Shown here one piece after another: positions 5,580 to 39,411 of a stretch of 39,411 nt of DNA; position 1 is the stretch's first letter, and each line of letters opens with the position of its first letter. Under the pieces are notes generated by a model. It was not told where the DNA came from and searched no databases. It was given only the letters and a program-made list of their open reading frames with translations. The stretch covers positions 1 to 39,411 of IMG/VR virus record IMGVR_UViG_3300042332_000401; one strand, 5' to 3'. This stretch comes from a virus. The position numbers and the translations under genes are program-made.

Positions 5580-6148
5580 CTCCACTCCGCCGCCAGGATG
5601 CCGAGCGCCTGGGCCAGCATGGCCGATGCCCTGCCCTCCCTGCACCGATGCGCCCGATCCCAGGCCGCGCAGGACATGCCGAGCCCGACGATCTCCACGA
5701 CGATCCCGTGGAGCGCCCCCGGCCCGCCGAGCAGCTGCGCCGCCTCGGCCAGCGCCCGTCCAGCCGCCACCCGTCGCTCGATGGCCGATGCTTGATCGCC
5801 GCCGCCCGACCGTGGCTCGATGCGCGTCGCTGAGGCCCCGGCCCGCCCGCTGATCTCGAACAGAGCCCGGAACCTCTCGCCCGCCGCCCGTTGCTCGCCG
5901 TCTATCGTGCCCGCCCGCTCCATGGCTGCCAGCGTGTCCACAACCCTCCATGGCCGGGACGGCCGGCCCTCGGCGTCGGTATACGCCCGACCCCCGCCCC
6001 GCTCGGTCCGCTCGGGCTCGGCCACCTCGATCCCGTGCTCGGCGTGCTGGGCACGCTCGCGCGTCGGCGGGATGACGGGATCGGCAGGATCGACGCCAGG
6101 GCGTTTTTTCCGACCGCTGGGGCGGAGTGTGCGGGCTTGGCTTGGCAT
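5576..6148 (-). CDS. DUF6456-like protein, probable DNA-binding regulator
   Basis: The product has 190 residues with start ATG 6148, chosen because AGGAAA lies eight bases upstream; a TTG start at 6172 would add eight residues. The N-terminal third is basic and disordered (PSGRKKRPG and arginine-rich stretches). The C-terminal half has the pattern AGERFRALFEIS, then ALAEAAQLLGGPGALHGIVVE, a V-GLGMSCAAWDRA helix and a final MLAQALGILAAEW helix. This resembles DUF6456 proteins of Alphaproteobacteria and their phages, whose C-terminal part looks like a helix-turn-helix region. It is the first gene of the packaging/late operon, which would fit a role in late transcription, but that is inference. 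The first ATG follows the GTTAC-repeat region. Confidence 0.6.
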   Translation of the reverse strand: MPSQARTLRPSGRKKRPGVDPADPVIPPTRERAQHAEHGIEVAEPERTERGGGRAYTDAEGRPSRPWRVVDTLAAMERAGTIDGEQRAAGERFRALFEISGRAGASATRIEPRSGGGDQASAIERRVAAGRALAEAAQLLGGPGALHGIVVEIVGLGMSCAAWDRAHRCREGRASAMLAQALGILAAEWR

Positions 6149-6319
6149 ATCCACGATTTCCTCGGATCTCAACTTATAAGTGCATTGGATTTTAGCGTTT
6201 CGTCGCGCATCAGCCGGTAACGGGTAACGGGTTCTAAAGAACCCCGTTACGTTACGTTACCGAACTGCTGCCTTTGCCCCCGGTAACAGGTTACCGGCCG
6301 TTACGTTACCGTTACCCTG
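6149..6319. other. Non-coding control region between primase-helicase and late operon
   Basis: This 171-base gap carries no plausible gene. Its left part holds the ribosome binding site of the DUF6456-like gene and the 8-base palindrome CTTATAAG (6173–6180). On the minus strand the latter contains TATAAG, a possible −10 element, although no good −35 lies 17 bases upstream. Its right part is filled by the GTTAC/GTAAC repeats described separately. A late promoter that needs an activator, a replication origin, or both, would fit the position between an early and a late gene block. Confidence 0.5.
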
Positions 6320-6324
6320 TTACC
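6216..6324. repeat. Cluster of eleven GTTAC/GTAAC pentamers (iteron-like; candidate origin or operator array)
   Basis: Within 109 bases the pentamer GTTAC occurs eight times on the plus strand (6246, 6251, 6256, 6290, 6300, 6305, 6311, 6319) and its complement GTAAC three times (6217, 6224, 6283). Several copies are in direct tandem. Two inverted repeats are built from them: 6218–6250, where GTAACGGGTTC pairs with GAACCCCGTTAC around TAAA with one bulged base, and 6280–6297, where CCGGTAAC and GTTACCGG flank AG. The last copy overlaps the stop codon of the primase-helicase. Arrays like this are typical of initiator-binding iterons at replication origins, or of multi-site operators. The binding protein is unknown. 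Confidence 0.75.
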
Positions 6325-8347
6325 GGTTGGATTTGTCCTGTCTTTTAATCATCATCGCTGTCGCATGGACCGGATCTATGACTGCCCATCCATGCTCCTC
6401 CGCCCTGATGACCGAGGCCGTTATCAACTCGCAGATGAGTCGTCCAGACGCAGTCGGCTTGGCGACCTGTTTGGCGCTGGCCTCTGACATCCCTGCGTCA
6501 GCCACCAGATATTCGATGAGCGCAGACCGCGATAGATATGGCGCTCCGTCGCGATCCTCGGCCCCGCTCGCCCACCAAGCACTCTCGAACATCTTACGAT
6601 GTCCGGCCAGCTTCGTGTCGATCTTCGGCCTCTCGACTGGCGCATCCGCCTCGACGGCCACCGCGCTGCCGACCGGCTGGCCGTCCTCATCAGTCCACCC
6701 GGCGATCGGCACCTGTTCCAACCGCGCGAAGGCAGGAGCGGTCAACTCGGCGTCCTTGCTCTTGCGCTGGACGATCTGGATCGGATCCTGCCCCTTGGCG
6801 GGCACCACCGAGATCTCGATGTCCAGCGCCCCGCGCCAGGCGCTCGACCCGCGCGCCCGGTGCTGAGCCTCTTCCATGACACCGGTGTGATGGACGAGGA
6901 GCACCGAGCATCCGAACTCCGTCATAAGCCGCGCACATGCGTCGAGCATCGACTTGGCGTCCTGGGCGCTGTTCTCGTCGCCAGCCAGGAACCGATGCAG
7001 CGTGTCCACCACGATCAGGACCGGCCGACGGTCCAGCGCCCGGATGGCTTCGGCCGTTCGGCGATATCCATCCGGCGTGTTGAGGTCCAGGCCATCTCGG
7101 GACAGCCACATGTCCAGACGCTCGACGCCGTGATGCTGCTTCCAGGCCGCGATCCTGGCCCGTAGGCCAGCGTGGCCCTCGCCAGCCAGATAGACGACCG
7201 GACCCGGCTTCACCTTCGCCTGTCGCCAGATTTCCCGCCCTGCCGCGAGCGTCAAGGACCAGTCCAAGACGACGAACGTCTTGCCGCCGCCGGACGGCCC
7301 GTGAACCATGAGGAGGCTCTCGGCCTGGAGCCACCCGCGCACCAGCCACCGGATCGGGGACGGCTGCGCGCTGAACTCGTCCGCCGGGACGAGCCATCCG
7401 TCTGCCGGCGGGTTGAGGAGCGCCGCGAGGTCGTGACCAGCTGCGCGGTAATCGTTGGCGTCGCCGGGTGTCGGCGGAACCACCACCCGAGCGCCGTGCT
7501 TTGCCGCCGCTTGCTCAGCGTACCGTTGCCCTACGCCGCTGGCGTCGTGGTCCGCCACGATGACCATCTCGCGAGCGGGAAAGCGCTCCCGAAGGCTCCC
7601 GGCGACCGGGACCAGGTTCGACGCGCTGTAGGCCACCACGACCGGCCTATCCGCCACCTCGTAGATCGTGGCAGCGGTGGCGAAGCCCTCGGCCAGATAG
7701 ATGGGCCCGCTATCGGCCTCCAGATCGCCAATCCACCAGAACGAGCCGCCGGCCTGACCGCCGGGATGGTAGAGCTTCTGGCCGTCCGCCGCGATGTACT
7801 GAAGCGAGACCAGATCTCCGTCCGGCTGATAGAGCGGGACCACCAGACGCCCGTCGCCCGTGACCCGAGCCCCGTGGGCCTGAATGCCCTTCCGCGCGAG
7901 GTAGGGATGCGCTGGCGCGGCTGGCCCGCATCCTCCCCAGATCGCCGCGACAGTGTCGGCGGCTGTCTCGCGCGTCCGCTGCCGCTCTGCATCCCGAGCC
8001 GCGATGGCCTCGGCCATCCGGCGCGCGTGCGCCATCTCCTCGACCGCCGTCACCGTGCGTCCGACATCGGCCCGCCAAAAATGCTCGATGCCCGCGCGCC
8101 AGCATCCGAACCGACCGGCGGGGATGCCATCGCCGAAGGCGATGTACCAGCCGGACTTGTCGCCCGCACCCGGTCGCCCCTTCGCCCCGCTGACAAACCG
8201 ATGAAGCGTCCCGTCGAGGTGAATTGCTGCCGGTGGCGCTATGCCCGCTGCCTCCATCGCGTCGCGCAGCTGCTGCTCCGGCGGCTCCGGCGAACGCTCT
8301 TTGGGCGGCGACCATGAGCCGCCTAGAATTGATCTGAGATCTGCCAT
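6320..8347 (-). CDS. Primase–helicase (TOPRIM plus RecA-fold RepA-type helicase)
   Basis: This bifunctional replication protein has 675 residues. Start ATG 8347 is chosen for its ACAGGAGAACTAC leader; the frame is open much further upstream but that part overlaps the divergent Sak4 gene. An N-terminal primase-like region leads into a TOPRIM domain with LAEGFAT (Glu220) and VADHDASG (Asp266, Asp268). A RecA/AAA_25 helicase domain follows, with Walker A HGPSGGGKT at 349–357, Walker B LIVVDT at 444–449 and LLVHHTG at 483–489. The C-terminal 100 residues look like a winged-helix region. No CHC2 zinc finger is obvious at the N-terminus. The phage has no DNA polymerase, so this protein probably opens and primes the origin for the host replisome. 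It lies beside the GTTAC repeats. Confidence 0.92.
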   Translation of the reverse strand: MADLRSILGGSWSPPKERSPEPPEQQLRDAMEAAGIAPPAAIHLDGTLHRFVSGAKGRPGAGDKSGWYIAFGDGIPAGRFGCWRAGIEHFWRADVGRTVTAVEEMAHARRMAEAIAARDAERQRTRETAADTVAAIWGGCGPAAPAHPYLARKGIQAHGARVTGDGRLVVPLYQPDGDLVSLQYIAADGQKLYHPGGQAGGSFWWIGDLEADSGPIYLAEGFATAATIYEVADRPVVVAYSASNLVPVAGSLRERFPAREMVIVADHDASGVGQRYAEQAAAKHGARVVVPPTPGDANDYRAAGHDLAALLNPPADGWLVPADEFSAQPSPIRWLVRGWLQAESLLMVHGPSGGGKTFVVLDWSLTLAAGREIWRQAKVKPGPVVYLAGEGHAGLRARIAAWKQHHGVERLDMWLSRDGLDLNTPDGYRRTAEAIRALDRRPVLIVVDTLHRFLAGDENSAQDAKSMLDACARLMTEFGCSVLLVHHTGVMEEAQHRARGSSAWRGALDIEISVVPAKGQDPIQIVQRKSKDAELTAPAFARLEQVPIAGWTDEDGQPVGSAVAVEADAPVERPKIDTKLAGHRKMFESAWWASGAEDRDGAPYLSRSALIEYLVADAGMSEASAKQVAKPTASGRLICELITASVIRAEEHGWAVIDPVHATAMMIKRQDKSNR

Positions 8348-8497
8348 GTAGTTCTCCTGTGTAGAGCGCCATCGTGGACCAGACGCCGCCGATTTGCAAC
8401 GCGCGCGAAAACCGACGTTGACATCGTCGCGCAATGTGGCGCAGATTGTCGGAACGCCGACCGGGATCGTCCGACTGGCGGGAAAAGGAAAACGATC
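8348..8497. promoter_or_regulatory. Divergent intergenic region between primase-helicase and recombination operon
   Basis: These 150 bases separate two divergently transcribed replication operons. They must hold promoters for both directions and their ribosome binding sites (AGGAGA leftward, AAGGA rightward). The rightward promoter candidate is listed separately. A short inverted repeat, CGACG-TTGACAT-CGTCG (8413–8429), covers its −35 box and could be an operator. No clear leftward −35/−10 pair was found. Confidence 0.55.
8418..8447 (+). promoter_or_regulatory. Rightward early promoter candidate for the Sak4 operon
   Basis: A perfect −35 hexamer TTGACA lies at 8418–8423. With 18 bases of spacing the −10 would be CAGATT at 8442–8447, which keeps three of six consensus positions, as is common for alphaproteobacterial promoters. 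The start codon of the first gene is 50 bases further on. The pentamers CGACG and CGTCG flank the −35 box symmetrically and may be a regulator site. Confidence 0.45.
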
Positions 8498-9567: not shown

Positions 9568-10065
9568 ATGGCTCTGCTCAATCAATCGTTCCGCGCCGAC
9601 GACCTCCCGCCTTCGGGCAATTACGATCCTATCCCGGCGGGCAAGTATCAGGCGAAGATTACCGAGGCCAGCGTCGGGATCACGAAGTCCGGCACCGGGG
9701 AATACATCAAGGTCCGGTGGGACATCCTCGGCCCCGCGCACCAAGGGCGCGTCGTGTTTCAGAACCTGAACATCCGCAATCAGTCGTCAGCGGCTGAGGA
9801 GATCGGTCGTCGCCAACTCGGCGAGATCATGCGCGCGATCGGGCTCGCAGCGGTGCAGGACACGGACCAGCTGGTCGGCGGCGAGGCGGAGATCAAGGTC
9901 GCGGTGAAGCAATCCGACGAGTACGGGCCGCGCAACGAGGTGGCGGCGACGATGCCGCTTGCGAAGGGTCAGCTTCCGCAGCCGGTGGCGACGAGCAAGC
10001 CAGCCATGTCTGCGCCCGCTGCTGCGCCGTCCCGCGCTGCCCCGCCCTGGGCTCGTAAGGCCTGA
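9568..10065 (+). CDS. DUF669-type single-stranded DNA-binding protein
   Basis: The product has 165 residues and fits the DUF669 family of phage OB-fold ssDNA-binding proteins that partner with Sak/Erf/RecT-type annealing systems. The N-terminus FRADDLPPSGNYDPIPAGKY and the strand series KITEASVGITKSGTGEYIKV, WDILGPAHQGRVVFQNLNI and the helix GRRQLGEIMRAIGL match the family. After a core of about 125 residues there is a flexible alanine/proline tail ending PPWARKA. AAGGAG precedes the ATG by nine bases. It would coat ssDNA and load or stimulate the Sak4-like ATPase encoded two genes upstream. The tail may be a protein-interaction tip, but it is not acidic as in bacterial SSB. Confidence 0.85.
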   Translation: MALLNQSFRADDLPPSGNYDPIPAGKYQAKITEASVGITKSGTGEYIKVRWDILGPAHQGRVVFQNLNIRNQSSAAEEIGRRQLGEIMRAIGLAAVQDTDQLVGGEAEIKVAVKQSDEYGPRNEVAATMPLAKGQLPQPVATSKPAMSAPAAAPSRAAPPWARKA

Positions 10066-10073
10066 ACGAAAAT

Positions 10074-10103
10074 GGGGCGGCAGCGGTGGATTGCTGCCGC
10101 CCC
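10074..10103 (+). terminator. Perfect 11-bp intergenic hairpin after the ssDNA-binding gene
   Basis: GGGGCGGCAGC (10074–10084) pairs exactly with GCTGCCGCCCC (10093–10103) around the 8-base loop GGTGGATT. The hairpin begins nine bases after the stop codon of the ssDNA-binding protein gene and ends about 25 bases before the next start. No T-run follows it, so full intrinsic termination is doubtful. A partial terminator, or a 3′ cap that protects the abundant upstream mRNA, would fit. Confidence 0.6.
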
Positions 10104-10128
10104 AAGTCTACAGGGAGGAGGAAACCGC

Positions 10129-11109
10129 ATGGCGACAGTTCCCGAGGCCAATCATAGCACCGCAGCGCTCATTGACAAGCATCACGAGGCGACTGCGGAC
10201 GATCCGCATCGCGACCATCTCGGCGCATCGATGCTTGGTCACAAGTGCGAGCGATATCTGTGGCTCAGCTTTCGCTGGGCATTCCGCGAGCAGATCCCCG
10301 GTCGCATCCGGCGGCTGTTTCGGCGCGGCCACAATGAGGAGGCGTCGATCATTACGGATCTGCGCGCCATCGGATGCGTGGTGCATGATCGCATGGCAGA
10401 TGGACGCCAGTATCGCGTCGAGCTAGCCCCGCATGTCGCGGGATCGCTCGACGCCATCATCGATAACGGCGTTCCCGAAGCTCCAAAGACGCGGCATGTG
10501 GCCGAGTTCAAGACGCACTCGCGCAAGTCGTTCGATGACCTCGTCGCGAACGGCGTGGCGAAATCCAAGCCGCTGCACCATGTCCAGATGCAAGCCTACA
10601 TGCACGGCATGGACATAGACCGCGCGCTCTATGTCGCCGTGTGCAAGGATGATGACCGGCTGCACGTCGAGCGCGTTGAGCGTGACCGAGCCATAGCGGA
10701 GAAATACATCGAGCGCGGCGCAAGGATCGCGCTGGCCGAGCGGATGCCGCCCGGTATCAGCGATGATCCGTCCTGGTACGAGTGCAAGTTCTGCCCCGCC
10801 CGCGACATGTGCCATGGCTCACGCAAGACGAGGGAGATCAATTGCCGGACATGCGCGCACTCGACGCCAGGCGGTGACGGGCAATGGCGCTGCGCACGAT
10901 GGGACGACGAGGTGATCCCGTCAGACGCGCAGCGCATCGGCTGTGGCTCGCATGTGTTCCACCCTGATCTGGTGCCGTGGCAGCTCCACGACAGCGGCAT
11001 CGAATGGGTGGCGCTATGGGAGATCGACGGCGCGATGGTCGCCAACGGCGAGGCCGATGCGAACGTGTATTCAAGCCGCGAGATCCTCGGAGAGACCGAT
11101 GCTGCGTGA
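10129..11109 (+). CDS. Cas4/RecB-like PD-(D/E)XK nuclease with Fe-S cysteines
   Basis: This predicted exonuclease has 326 residues with ATG 10129, behind a strong AGGAGGA. PD-(D/E)XK signatures are GSLDAIID (Asp108), VAEFKTH (Glu126, Lys128) and the HVQMQAYMHG helix with the QxxxY motif (Gln153, Tyr157). A cysteine in GHKCERYLW (Cys40) and three in CKFCPARDMC (219, 222, 228) make the set that holds a 4Fe-4S cluster in Cas4 and AddB. An additional C-terminal segment, CRTCAH...QWRCARWDD, could bind zinc. In a phage recombination operon it probably resects DNA ends to make substrates for the Sak4/ssDNA-binding pair. There is no CRISPR array or Cas1 nearby, so an adaptation role is unsupported. 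Confidence 0.85.
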   Translation: MATVPEANHSTAALIDKHHEATADDPHRDHLGASMLGHKCERYLWLSFRWAFREQIPGRIRRLFRRGHNEEASIITDLRAIGCVVHDRMADGRQYRVELAPHVAGSLDAIIDNGVPEAPKTRHVAEFKTHSRKSFDDLVANGVAKSKPLHHVQMQAYMHGMDIDRALYVAVCKDDDRLHVERVERDRAIAEKYIERGARIALAERMPPGISDDPSWYECKFCPARDMCHGSRKTREINCRTCAHSTPGGDGQWRCARWDDEVIPSDAQRIGCGSHVFHPDLVPWQLHDSGIEWVALWEIDGAMVANGEADANVYSSREILGETDAA

Positions 11110-12709
11110 ATACCAGCGCCGCGCCATCGACATGCTGTATGCATGGCTCGAAAAGAACGCCGGTCACCCGTGCCTCGTCTTGCCGACAGGCTCGGGCAAG
11201 AGCCACATCGTCGCCGCGCTATGCAAGGACGCGGTTCAGAACTGGCCCGAGACGCGCATCCTCATGCTCACGCATGTGAAGGAGTTGATCCAGCAGAACG
11301 CCGAGAAGATGCGCCAGCACTGGCCTGGCGCGCCGCTCGGGATCTACTCGGCCAGCCTACGTCGCCGCCAGCTTGACGAGCCGATCACGTTCGCCGGCAT
11401 TCAATCGATCATCAGCCAAATCGATAGGATAGGCCATGTCGATCTGGTCATCATCGATGAATGCCACCTCGTCAACCACAAGGAACAGGGCAGCTATCGC
11501 GTGCTGATCGATCATCTGGCGAAGGTCAATCCGGCCTTGCGCGTGATCGGTCTCACGGCGACGCCGTATCGCCTCGGGCACGGCATGATCACCGACGCGC
11601 CCGCGCTGTTCTGGGATCTGATCGAGCCCGTCAGTGTCGAGGAACTGATCTACAAGGGCTTCCTTTCGCCGCTGCGATCAAAGGCGACGGCGGCGAAGAT
11701 CGATGTCGGTGGCGTTCACAAGCGAGGCGGCGAATACATCGAGGCTGAGCTACAGGCCGCAGCCGATACCGACGCGCTGAACACCTCGACTGTTGACGAG
11801 GTCATCGCGCGATCCGAAGGACGTAAGGCGTGGCTGTTCTTCTGCACTGGCGTCCGTCATGCCGAGCGCGTGCGCGACGAATTGCGGAAGCGAGGTATCA
11901 CGGCTGAATGCGTGCTTGGCGATACGCCGCCAGCCGAGCGCGATCGGATCATCTCTGACTTCCGCGCTGGCCGGGTTCGCGCGCTGACCAACGCCAACGT
12001 CCTGACCACCGGCTTCGACTATCCAGACATCGACCTAATTGCCCTGCTGCGGCCTACATGCTCACCCGGCCTCTACGTCCAGATGGTCGGTCGCGGAATG
12101 CGGCTGAAGAGCGAGGCCAAGGACTGCCTTGTCCTCGACTTCGCCGGATGCGTGGCGACACACGGTCCGATCATCGCGGTTCAGCCGCCGCGCAAGCCTG
12201 GAAAAGGACCGGAGGAGAAGAAGGCACCGACCAAGACCTGTCCGAACTGCGACGAGGTGGTGGCGTTGTCCGTGCGAAAGTGCCCGGTCTGCGGGCACGA
12301 ATGGCAGATGCAGCCGGTCAAGCTAGAGCTGCGTGACGACGACATCATGGGGCAGGACGGCAAGACGATGGCCGTCAAGAATTGGTCGTGGCGCAAGCAT
12401 GTAAGCCGGACTAGTGGAAAAGAGATGCTGGCAGTCTCCTATTACCCGGCCGATTACGCTGCGCCCGTGGTGGTTGAGTATTTGCCAATCATGCACGACG
12501 GATATGCGGGCCAGAAAAGTCGAAAGCAGCTCATGAAGATGGCTGCGAGCGCTGGCGTCGATTGGAACGAGGAGGTGCCGTTCGATTTCGAGCAGACGGC
12601 ATCCATGCTGTCGAATGCAACGCCGCCGCGCGAGATCGAGTATCGACAGGACGGCAAGTTCTTTCGCGTGATCAAAAGGAGATGGGAACGTGACGAAGCG
12701 ACTGCCTGA
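11099..12709 (+). CDS. Superfamily II DEAD/DEAH-type helicase with zinc ribbon
   Basis: This ATP-dependent helicase has 536 residues starting at ATG 11099, overlapping the nuclease gene by 11 bases with GGAGA upstream. An open upstream extension is only a reading-frame continuation. Motif I is PTGSGKS (29–35), motif II DECH (120–123), motif III TATP (153–156) and motif VI QMVGRGMR (328–335), the RAD25/SSL2-like arrangement. After the helicase core comes a four-cysteine zinc ribbon, CPNC (381–384) and CPVC (395–398). A C-terminal module of about 130 residues follows, with SWRKHVSRTSGKEML and DGKFFRVIKRRW. It would unwind DNA for recombination-dependent replication next to the Cas4-like nuclease. 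The exact substrate cannot be seen. Confidence 0.92.
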   Translation: MLREYQRRAIDMLYAWLEKNAGHPCLVLPTGSGKSHIVAALCKDAVQNWPETRILMLTHVKELIQQNAEKMRQHWPGAPLGIYSASLRRRQLDEPITFAGIQSIISQIDRIGHVDLVIIDECHLVNHKEQGSYRVLIDHLAKVNPALRVIGLTATPYRLGHGMITDAPALFWDLIEPVSVEELIYKGFLSPLRSKATAAKIDVGGVHKRGGEYIEAELQAAADTDALNTSTVDEVIARSEGRKAWLFFCTGVRHAERVRDELRKRGITAECVLGDTPPAERDRIISDFRAGRVRALTNANVLTTGFDYPDIDLIALLRPTCSPGLYVQMVGRGMRLKSEAKDCLVLDFAGCVATHGPIIAVQPPRKPGKGPEEKKAPTKTCPNCDEVVALSVRKCPVCGHEWQMQPVKLELRDDDIMGQDGKTMAVKNWSWRKHVSRTSGKEMLAVSYYPADYAAPVVVEYLPIMHDGYAGQKSRKQLMKMAASAGVDWNEEVPFDFEQTASMLSNATPPREIEYRQDGKFFRVIKRRWERDEATA

Positions 12710-38794: not shown

Positions 38795-39411
38795 TCAGAG
38801 GGCGACGTTCTGCAACACGATGGCCTCGGGCAGCACGACCTGGCCGCCGACGCGGCGGCGGAAGATCATGCGGACCGCGCCGCTCGTCGCCTGGGTGTAG
38901 GGATCGCGCAGCATCTCCATCGCGATGCGATCCACGATCACATAGCCACGACGGAAGTCGCCGAACGCGACGGGCTTGGCCGACGCGCCGACATCCGGCA
39001 TGTCAGCGGCCTCAACGTAGGGCGCGCCGTTGATGGTGTTCGGCACGCCACCCGCAAGGCCAGGAGCCCACAGATACTCGCCGTCGCCGTCCTTGAGGCG
39101 GCGGATCTGACCGATGGTCGAGCGGTTCATCATCCACACCGCCGCGCGCGCGTAGTCGGTCTTGATGCCGTAGTAGACGCTCAGCAGACCGTCAGCCGTC
39201 AGCGCTGCCGCCGCGCCGCTGTTCACGGTCGCGATGGAGGCGTTGTTCAAGAAGCCGAACGGACGACCGACGCCCGAGCCGCTCAGGAACGCCGCGCCTT
39301 CGGCCTTCGCGAACTGCTCGGTGGCCTCGGCGCGAACCTCGGCCTCCATGTTGAAGGCGGCGTCTTCGAGCATCTGATTGGTGATGTCCACGAGCGCATA
39401 CATCTCGTGCG
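38795..39411 (-). CDS. Major capsid protein, HK97 fold (C-terminal part; begins at 776 across the contig join)
   Basis: This frame enters from the right edge and continues the capsid gene that runs off base 1. Frame check: base 39403 equals base 119 after removing the overlap, and 776−119 is a multiple of three. The part shows MYALVDITNQMLEDAAFNME, FAKAEGAAFLSGSGVGRPFG, AVWMMNRSTIGQIRRLKDGD, YLWAPGL-AGGVPNTINGAPY and FGDFRRGYVIVDRIAMEMLR, all typical P- and A-domain sequence of HK97-fold capsids. It ends at TGA 38797–38795, followed after 24 bases by the decoration gene. Confidence 0.96.
   Translation of the reverse strand, partial: HEMYALVDITNQMLEDAAFNMEAEVRAEATEQFAKAEGAAFLSGSGVGRPFGFLNNASIATVNSGAAAALTADGLLSVYYGIKTDYARAAVWMMNRSTIGQIRRLKDGDGEYLWAPGLAGGVPNTINGAPYVEAADMPDVGASAKPVAFGDFRRGYVIVDRIAMEMLRDPYTQATSGAVRMIFRRRVGGQVVLPEAIVLQNVAL
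39285..39411. repeat. Right copy of 127-bp terminal direct repeat
   Basis: Identical to bases 1–127 and in the same orientation. When it is removed the contig closes into a circle of 39,284 bp, and the major capsid frame is uninterrupted. It is part of the capsid coding sequence and not a separate element. Confidence 0.97.

Follow-up and report, generated by a model that had tools for sequence, protein, structure and literature searches.

A hairpin flanked by iterons at the 3΄ end of a phage primase-helicase gene: a putative replication origin, proposed to be read by the enzyme's own C-terminal domain

The repeat array and the adjoining primase-helicase gene

We analyzed a stretch of viral DNA of 39,411 bases (IMG/VR record IMGVR_UViG_3300042332_000401; hereafter, the window). 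A direct terminal repeat of 127 bases is present at positions 1-127 and 39285-39411 and makes it probable that the genome, of 39,284 bases, is complete. The element of interest occupies positions 6216-6324 and consists, from left to right, of two iterons, a hairpin, three iterons, a box and further iterons. The left pair (6216..6228) is formed by GTAAC at 6217-6221 and GTAAC at 6224-6228, that is, GTTAC on the minus strand; almost all relatives have paired iterons in the same position. The hairpin GGGTTC-TAAA-GAACCC (6229..6244) is lengthened by the flanking GTAAC/GTTAC to 6224-6250, with one extra C. It is followed on the plus strand by a triple tandem iteron, GTTACGTTACGTTAC (6246..6260), and by a conserved box, CTTTGCCCCC (6272..6281), whose form in the family is TT(T)TGCC. 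The right iteron block (6283..6323) contains GTAAC at 6283 and GTTAC at 6290, 6300, 6305, 6311 and 6319.

An earlier note on this DNA had reported a cluster of these pentamers between the stop codon of a primase-helicase gene and the next operon. Indeed, 11 of the 20 GTTAC/GTAAC copies in the whole window lie within 6217-6323, as the note had placed them, and the maximum number of GTTAC in any 109 bases of simulated windows was 2 (third-order Markov model, 60 runs). The expected enrichment was thus confirmed as clustering at the array but not as a genome-wide excess (20 copies versus 15 expected, not significant). Likewise, the array does lie beside the primase-helicase gene, but it is not purely intergenic, because the rightmost GTTAC copy (6319-6323) overlaps the stop codon (6320-6322). 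A turn of the GC skew at the array, which the note had also anticipated, was not observed; the detrended minimum lies instead at 8435, at a divergent transcription start. The GC content of 1-kb windows in this region is 63-66%, and the array stretch, taken as single-stranded DNA, folded better than 200 out of 200 shuffled sequences (z = -3.9).

The gene itself (6320..8347, minus strand) encodes a protein of 675 amino acids, with the start codon chosen by conservation of MADL.., and consists of a Toprim primase, a RepA/KaiC-type (AAA_25) helicase and a C-terminal winged helix; it is the proposed initiator. Pfam matches were obtained for AAA_25 (E = 7e-41) and Toprim_3 (E = 4e-12), and the structural model is T7 gp4-like, with a helicase part resembling RepA of plasmid RSF1010. 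The last ~100 residues (6323..6616, minus strand), the proposed iteron binder, were modeled by AlphaFold2 with a pLDDT of ~90 and the secondary structure of a winged helix. The closest solved folds are mostly winged-helix regulators, e.g. SqrR, HlyU and SmtB, with modest scores (Z of 6.7 or less). Many such regulators, and no named replication initiator, were present among the chains compared with this domain by VIA-align, a lack that argues against nothing; neither a sequence relative of the domain in the PDB nor a convincing Pfam family for it was found. One chain therefore combines primase, helicase and, by predicted fold, a DNA-binding domain, as in self-recognizing primase-helicases of the P4-alpha/PICI type, and the clustered short repeats adjoin the candidate initiator gene, as in iteron-type replication origins. 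A divergent operon at 9568-12709 of the window encodes a DUF669/ssDNA-binding-like protein together with a Cas4-type exonuclease and a DEAD-type helicase, and it resembles the operon of annotated relatives.

Conservation of the element, its hairpin and the DnaA boxes of relatives

Most of the IMG/VR matches listed for GTTACGTTACGTTAC share the layout of two iterons, hairpin, three iterons, TT(T)TGCC box and more iterons, and among the matches listed a related primase-helicase gene almost always ends beside the element. Loss of the array in close relatives, which the earlier note had named as counter-evidence, was not seen, the array being kept in seven of them (L003-L007, L010 and L011). A scan with the protein only matched at least 577 relatives. 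For 139 loci retrieved by protein, we asked whether any 6-mer reaches six or more copies in a span of 180 nt located 3΄ of the gene; this was so in 88%, compared with <1% in shuffled sequences and in upstream coding DNA. This statistic replaced an initial one (a 5-mer present in 6-8 or more copies per 420 nt), which was too weak because shuffled sequences reach 8 in 34% of cases. The TT(T)TGCC box was found no more than 75 nt from the hairpin in 104 out of 129 loci (23% in shuffles), mostly 26-29 nt past it.

The element is retained beside the primase-helicase across very divergent phages. In a second group of relatives, a PrimPol domain replaces Toprim, whereas the helicase, the C-terminal domain and the element are the same; the element is therefore independent of the type of primase. 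In PrimPol-type loci, including L090 and L060, the primase half reads PrimPol plus PriCT_1 in place of Toprim. At the DNA level, no match was obtained in annotated phages, and the element pattern had no matches in bacterial genomes; searching bacterial genomes with the protein gave 20 contigs, 19 of which were from MAGs.

Several loci depart from the usual arrangement. In seven of them (L096, L099, L119, L142, L146, L173 and L314), an inserted gene apparently separates the primase-helicase from the array, and in several of the seven the array itself is still seen downstream of the apparent insertion. In two others (L139 and L075), an array and a hairpin adjoin much more divergent RepA-type helicases, and the system may accordingly reach past the aligned family. 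A 17-kb Klebsiella plasmid with a capsid gene (L362, CP018459) carries a RepA-family helicase gene followed by ~8 copies of AAATGC(CGC), with no obvious CTAAAG hairpin.

The genes on the other side of the element bear on an alternative to an origin, namely a site of packaging (pac) or recombination. Terminase genes do lie ~1.4 kb further left in the window, which would suit such a site, but in annotated relatives the next genes are others (hypothetical proteins, thymidylate synthase, methyltransferase), and the element adjoins the replicative helicase, not the terminase. Given also that the iterons covary with the C-terminal domain of that helicase, as described below, a pac or recombination site is extremely unlikely.

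The hairpin is constant in kind and variable in sequence. Its tip is CTAAAG, CTATAG or CTTAAG among relatives, and the base pairs of the inner stem have been swapped on both sides many times in a set of 44 distinct sequences. The stem covariation score of these 44 sequences, which had been preselected for pairing, was 0.58, compared with 0.21 after shuffling and 0.40 for the best slid alignment. Because of that preselection, a fairer test is one anchored solely on the triple iteron; here, a perfect stem of at least 6 pairs was found in 24 of 39 distinct stretches, with ~0.02 expected. That only complementarity and the tip are kept points to a hairpin acting as a structure of the single strand, or as a cruciform, rather than as a sequence read by a protein. 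A stem-loop directly 3΄ of the replication gene is also a feature of pRN1-type origins, although the small stem and the iterons are unlike pRN1.

A stable, covarying hairpin located 3΄ of a gene could also belong to a structured RNA or a transcription terminator at the end of the primase-helicase mRNA. No GC-rich hairpin followed by a T run, and no other terminator-like tail, was found in 6050-6500, however, and the best Rfam score was 18.9 bits, against a gathering cut-off of 36. Moreover, the iterons stand in both orientations and their word changes in concert with a DNA-binding-like domain, and DnaA boxes flank the element in relatives. We thus consider an RNA or terminator function very unlikely.

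These DnaA boxes were counted as perfect matches to TTATNCACA. Over the 420 nt that follow the gene on its 3΄ side, 140 boxes were found, distributed over 56 of 223 loci, where 1.9 were expected, and their density was 1.40/kb there versus 0.04/kb elsewhere in the same loci (35-fold). Shuffled 9-mers gave 0.3 matches on average, compared with 136 for the DnaA box. The offsets of the boxes from the hairpin are fixed, at about -80, +100 and +120, and the Toprim-group tree shows at least 6 switches between presence and absence of the box. The window and its own lineage contain no DnaA box.

The iterons covary with the C-terminal domain

In other relatives, the iteron word differs from GTTAC, with all copies swapped in concert and the kind of hairpin constant. 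The words GTTCC, GGTAC, GGTCC, GATAC and GCTAC were observed, as were TGTCC, GGGTCA, GGGACA, TGTACC, TGTGACG, GTTTCG, GTTCG, GGTTCA, TTCCAGC and TGTCACG. Changed words are also found in cultured phages, namely Salicola CGphi29, Idiomarinaceae 1N2-2, Alteromonas PB15 and XX1924, Roseobacter CRP-406 and the distant Rhizobium phage 16-3.

We compared iteron similarity with the identity of each protein domain in 81 non-redundant relatives, using a partial Mantel correlation that controlled for the remaining domains. Iterons were compared by pairwise similarity, since an earlier grouping by shared 5-mers had merged most loci into one cluster. The C-terminal domain gave a partial r of 0.40, which was reached in 0 of 500 permutations, whereas the other domains gave r values of 0.00-0.06. 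For protein-retrieved loci only, r was 0.37 for the C-terminal domain (0 of 1000 permutations), with a weak signal also in the neighboring helicase half (r = 0.13). In a sliding-window analysis, the correlation with the iterons was maximal at residues 590-670.

A change confined to this part of the locus was observed in L008 and L009, the iterons of which are GGTAC. Their primase-helicases are mostly 96-100% identical to that of the window as far as residue 575 (84-92% for the initial 50 residues), whereas past this residue the identity falls through a transition of 64-68% to 40-48%. In L008, L009 and L340, which also has GGTAC iterons, the DNA divergence is limited to ~6620-6240, a stretch covering the 3΄-terminal part of the gene along with the right-hand portion of the array, and the next gene is unaffected (~80-94%). 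A donor of the L008/L009 domain was sought and not found, the best match outside that group being 46%, so that the domain may have arisen either by recombination or by rapid divergence. The C-terminal domain is fast-evolving in general, with identities of 60-96% among GTTAC relatives.

Individual residues were compared as well. Between the near-identical domains of L203 (GTTAC) and of L213 and L194 (GTTCC), SAKQ is changed to SAKV and SSP to SAT, with little else. The Q of SAKQ is Gln627, counted from Met1 (codon CAG, 6467..6469, minus strand), and this candidate specificity residue had the top mutual information for GTTAC versus GTTCC. When the C-terminal domain was left out of the tree, the residue at this site matched GTTAC versus GTTCC in all 8 of the informative independent contrasts (P ~ 0.008), and Q matched any GN-TAC iteron in 12 of 12. 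Exceptions to such a code are M in 11 GTTAC loci, V in L202 and K in several GGTAC loci. In the model, the site lies in a helix of the helix-turn-helix, and we infer that Gln627 would contact the DNA.

Judged from these sequence comparisons, the C-terminal domain and the iterons are functionally coupled, although co-variation alone does not show that the function is replication. The earlier note had offered, beside an origin, a multi-site operator for the early-to-late switch. At such an operator, the C-terminal domain or a nearby small HTH protein would control the left operon or, by autoregulation, the primase gene. The array does separate two operons, annotated relatives have a Cro-like HTH gene along with the primase, and plasmid iterons often serve as operators too. 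Nevertheless, the array is 3΄ of the gene and away from its promoter, no sigma-70 promoter-like sequence was found in 6050-6500, and the left-hand genes vary among phages; furthermore, the covarying domain belongs to a replication enzyme, and neither a covarying hairpin nor DnaA boxes characterize an operator. Regulation may be an additional role of the array, but an operator explains less than an origin does, and as the main function we consider it improbable.

A putative replication origin and its relation to known systems

These results suggest that positions 6216-6324 are very probably the replication origin of the phage, with the iterons bound by the C-terminal winged helix of the primase-helicase itself, which would load the helicase and primase. 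An origin is much the best reading because of the DnaA boxes, the adjacent primase-helicase and the precedents of P4, PICI and pRN1. The suggestion of the earlier note that such an origin might be recognized by a phage protein is supported by three comparisons of sequences: the iterons covary with the C-terminal domain, the DnaA boxes of relatives have fixed positions, and the element is conserved beside the primase-helicase.

We infer that replication starts at the element. In the proposed mechanism, the C-terminal winged helix would bind the GTTAC iterons on either side of the hairpin, and oligomerization would load the helicase and open the DNA there, thereby placing the helicase and primase of one polypeptide at the origin. 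The hairpin might be extruded, or it might mark the site of loading or priming, like the ssi hairpins of RSF1010, and host DnaA might assist in some relatives or hosts.

The specificity of this origin might further be re-keyable, the winged helix and the iterons being replaced or mutated as a unit. This would yield more than 12 non-cross-reacting words around a constant hairpin, with a simple residue-to-base code (e.g. Gln for the A of GTTAC and Val for the C of GTTCC); we regard the case for and against this proposal as evenly balanced. If it is true, word switching could spare co-infecting phages or parasites each other's initiators or origin-directed nucleases. The specificity of initiators for origins has usually been studied in a handful of plasmids. 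Here, hundreds of natural matched protein-DNA pairs are available, some of them distinguished by a single iteron base and a small number of residues, and an initiator's change of origin is therefore directly testable.

The system belongs strictly to none of P4, PICI, pRN1 and PLE; its proposed mode of action resembles that of P4 alpha/ori and PICI pri-rep-ori, and it shares a stem-loop with pRN1. The helicase family of P4 alpha differs from the one found here, and no family of switched repeat words sharing a hairpin has been described for P4. P4 alpha is a single protein in which primase and helicase are joined to a C-terminal domain that binds the origin by recognizing short repeats (PMC4234260); the order of parts is similar here, where iteron binding by the C-terminal domain is proposed. 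In the pri-rep-ori of PICI/SaPI, an iteron origin lies directly 3΄ of a primase-initiator gene with sequence-distinct Pri-Rep variants (PMC6092414), and the placement is the same in our system. Unlike the phages considered here, however, PICI/SaPI are satellites, with two iteron sets around an AT-rich region instead of a constant hairpin with a CTAAAG tip, and they differ from the combination of Toprim or PrimPol with a RepA-type helicase.

The primase-helicases of pRN1 (ORF904) and phage BIP-1 have a C-terminal winged helix and an essential stem-loop of variable stem sequence just 3΄ of the gene (PMC4234260). A predicted C-terminal winged helix, a stem-loop in this position and a stem sequence free to vary recur here, whereas pRN1 has a large loop, an SF3 helicase and no iterons. 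In place of the SF3 helicase and archaeo-eukaryotic primase of the pRN1 type, we found AAA_25 (RepA/KaiC-like) together with Toprim in the window and PrimPol in other relatives. The oriV of RSF1010 combines iterons bound by RepC, the RepA helicase and priming by RepB΄ at ssi hairpins (PMC4234260); iterons and hairpins are common to both systems, and the helicase domain here is structurally like RepA, but three proteins act there in place of one polypeptide, and priming at the hairpin, shown for RSF1010, is here only proposed. In the PLE satellite of Vibrio cholerae, the DNA-binding domain of RepA_N and the ori covary and are swapped as a module (PMC8263062). The initiator domain thus covaries with the origin in both cases, with two origin types in PLE compared with more than 12 repeat words here, and selection by an origin-directed nuclease has been shown for PLE (PMC8263062).

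No description of the system was found in the open-access literature, to which our search was confined. The element provides a rule for locating the replication origins of uncultured phages by sequence alone, and it yields candidate origins in the cultured Rhizobium phage 16-3, Alteromonas PB15 and XX1924, Roseobacter CRP-406, Salicola CGphi29 and Idiomarinaceae 1N2-2, for which no published description of such an origin was found in the literature searched. Rhizobium phage 16-3 is a tractable model among them. In this relative (L361; 27% identical), GTGACA/TGTCACG occurs 15 times 3΄ of p101, together with a hairpin whose tip is CTAAAG.
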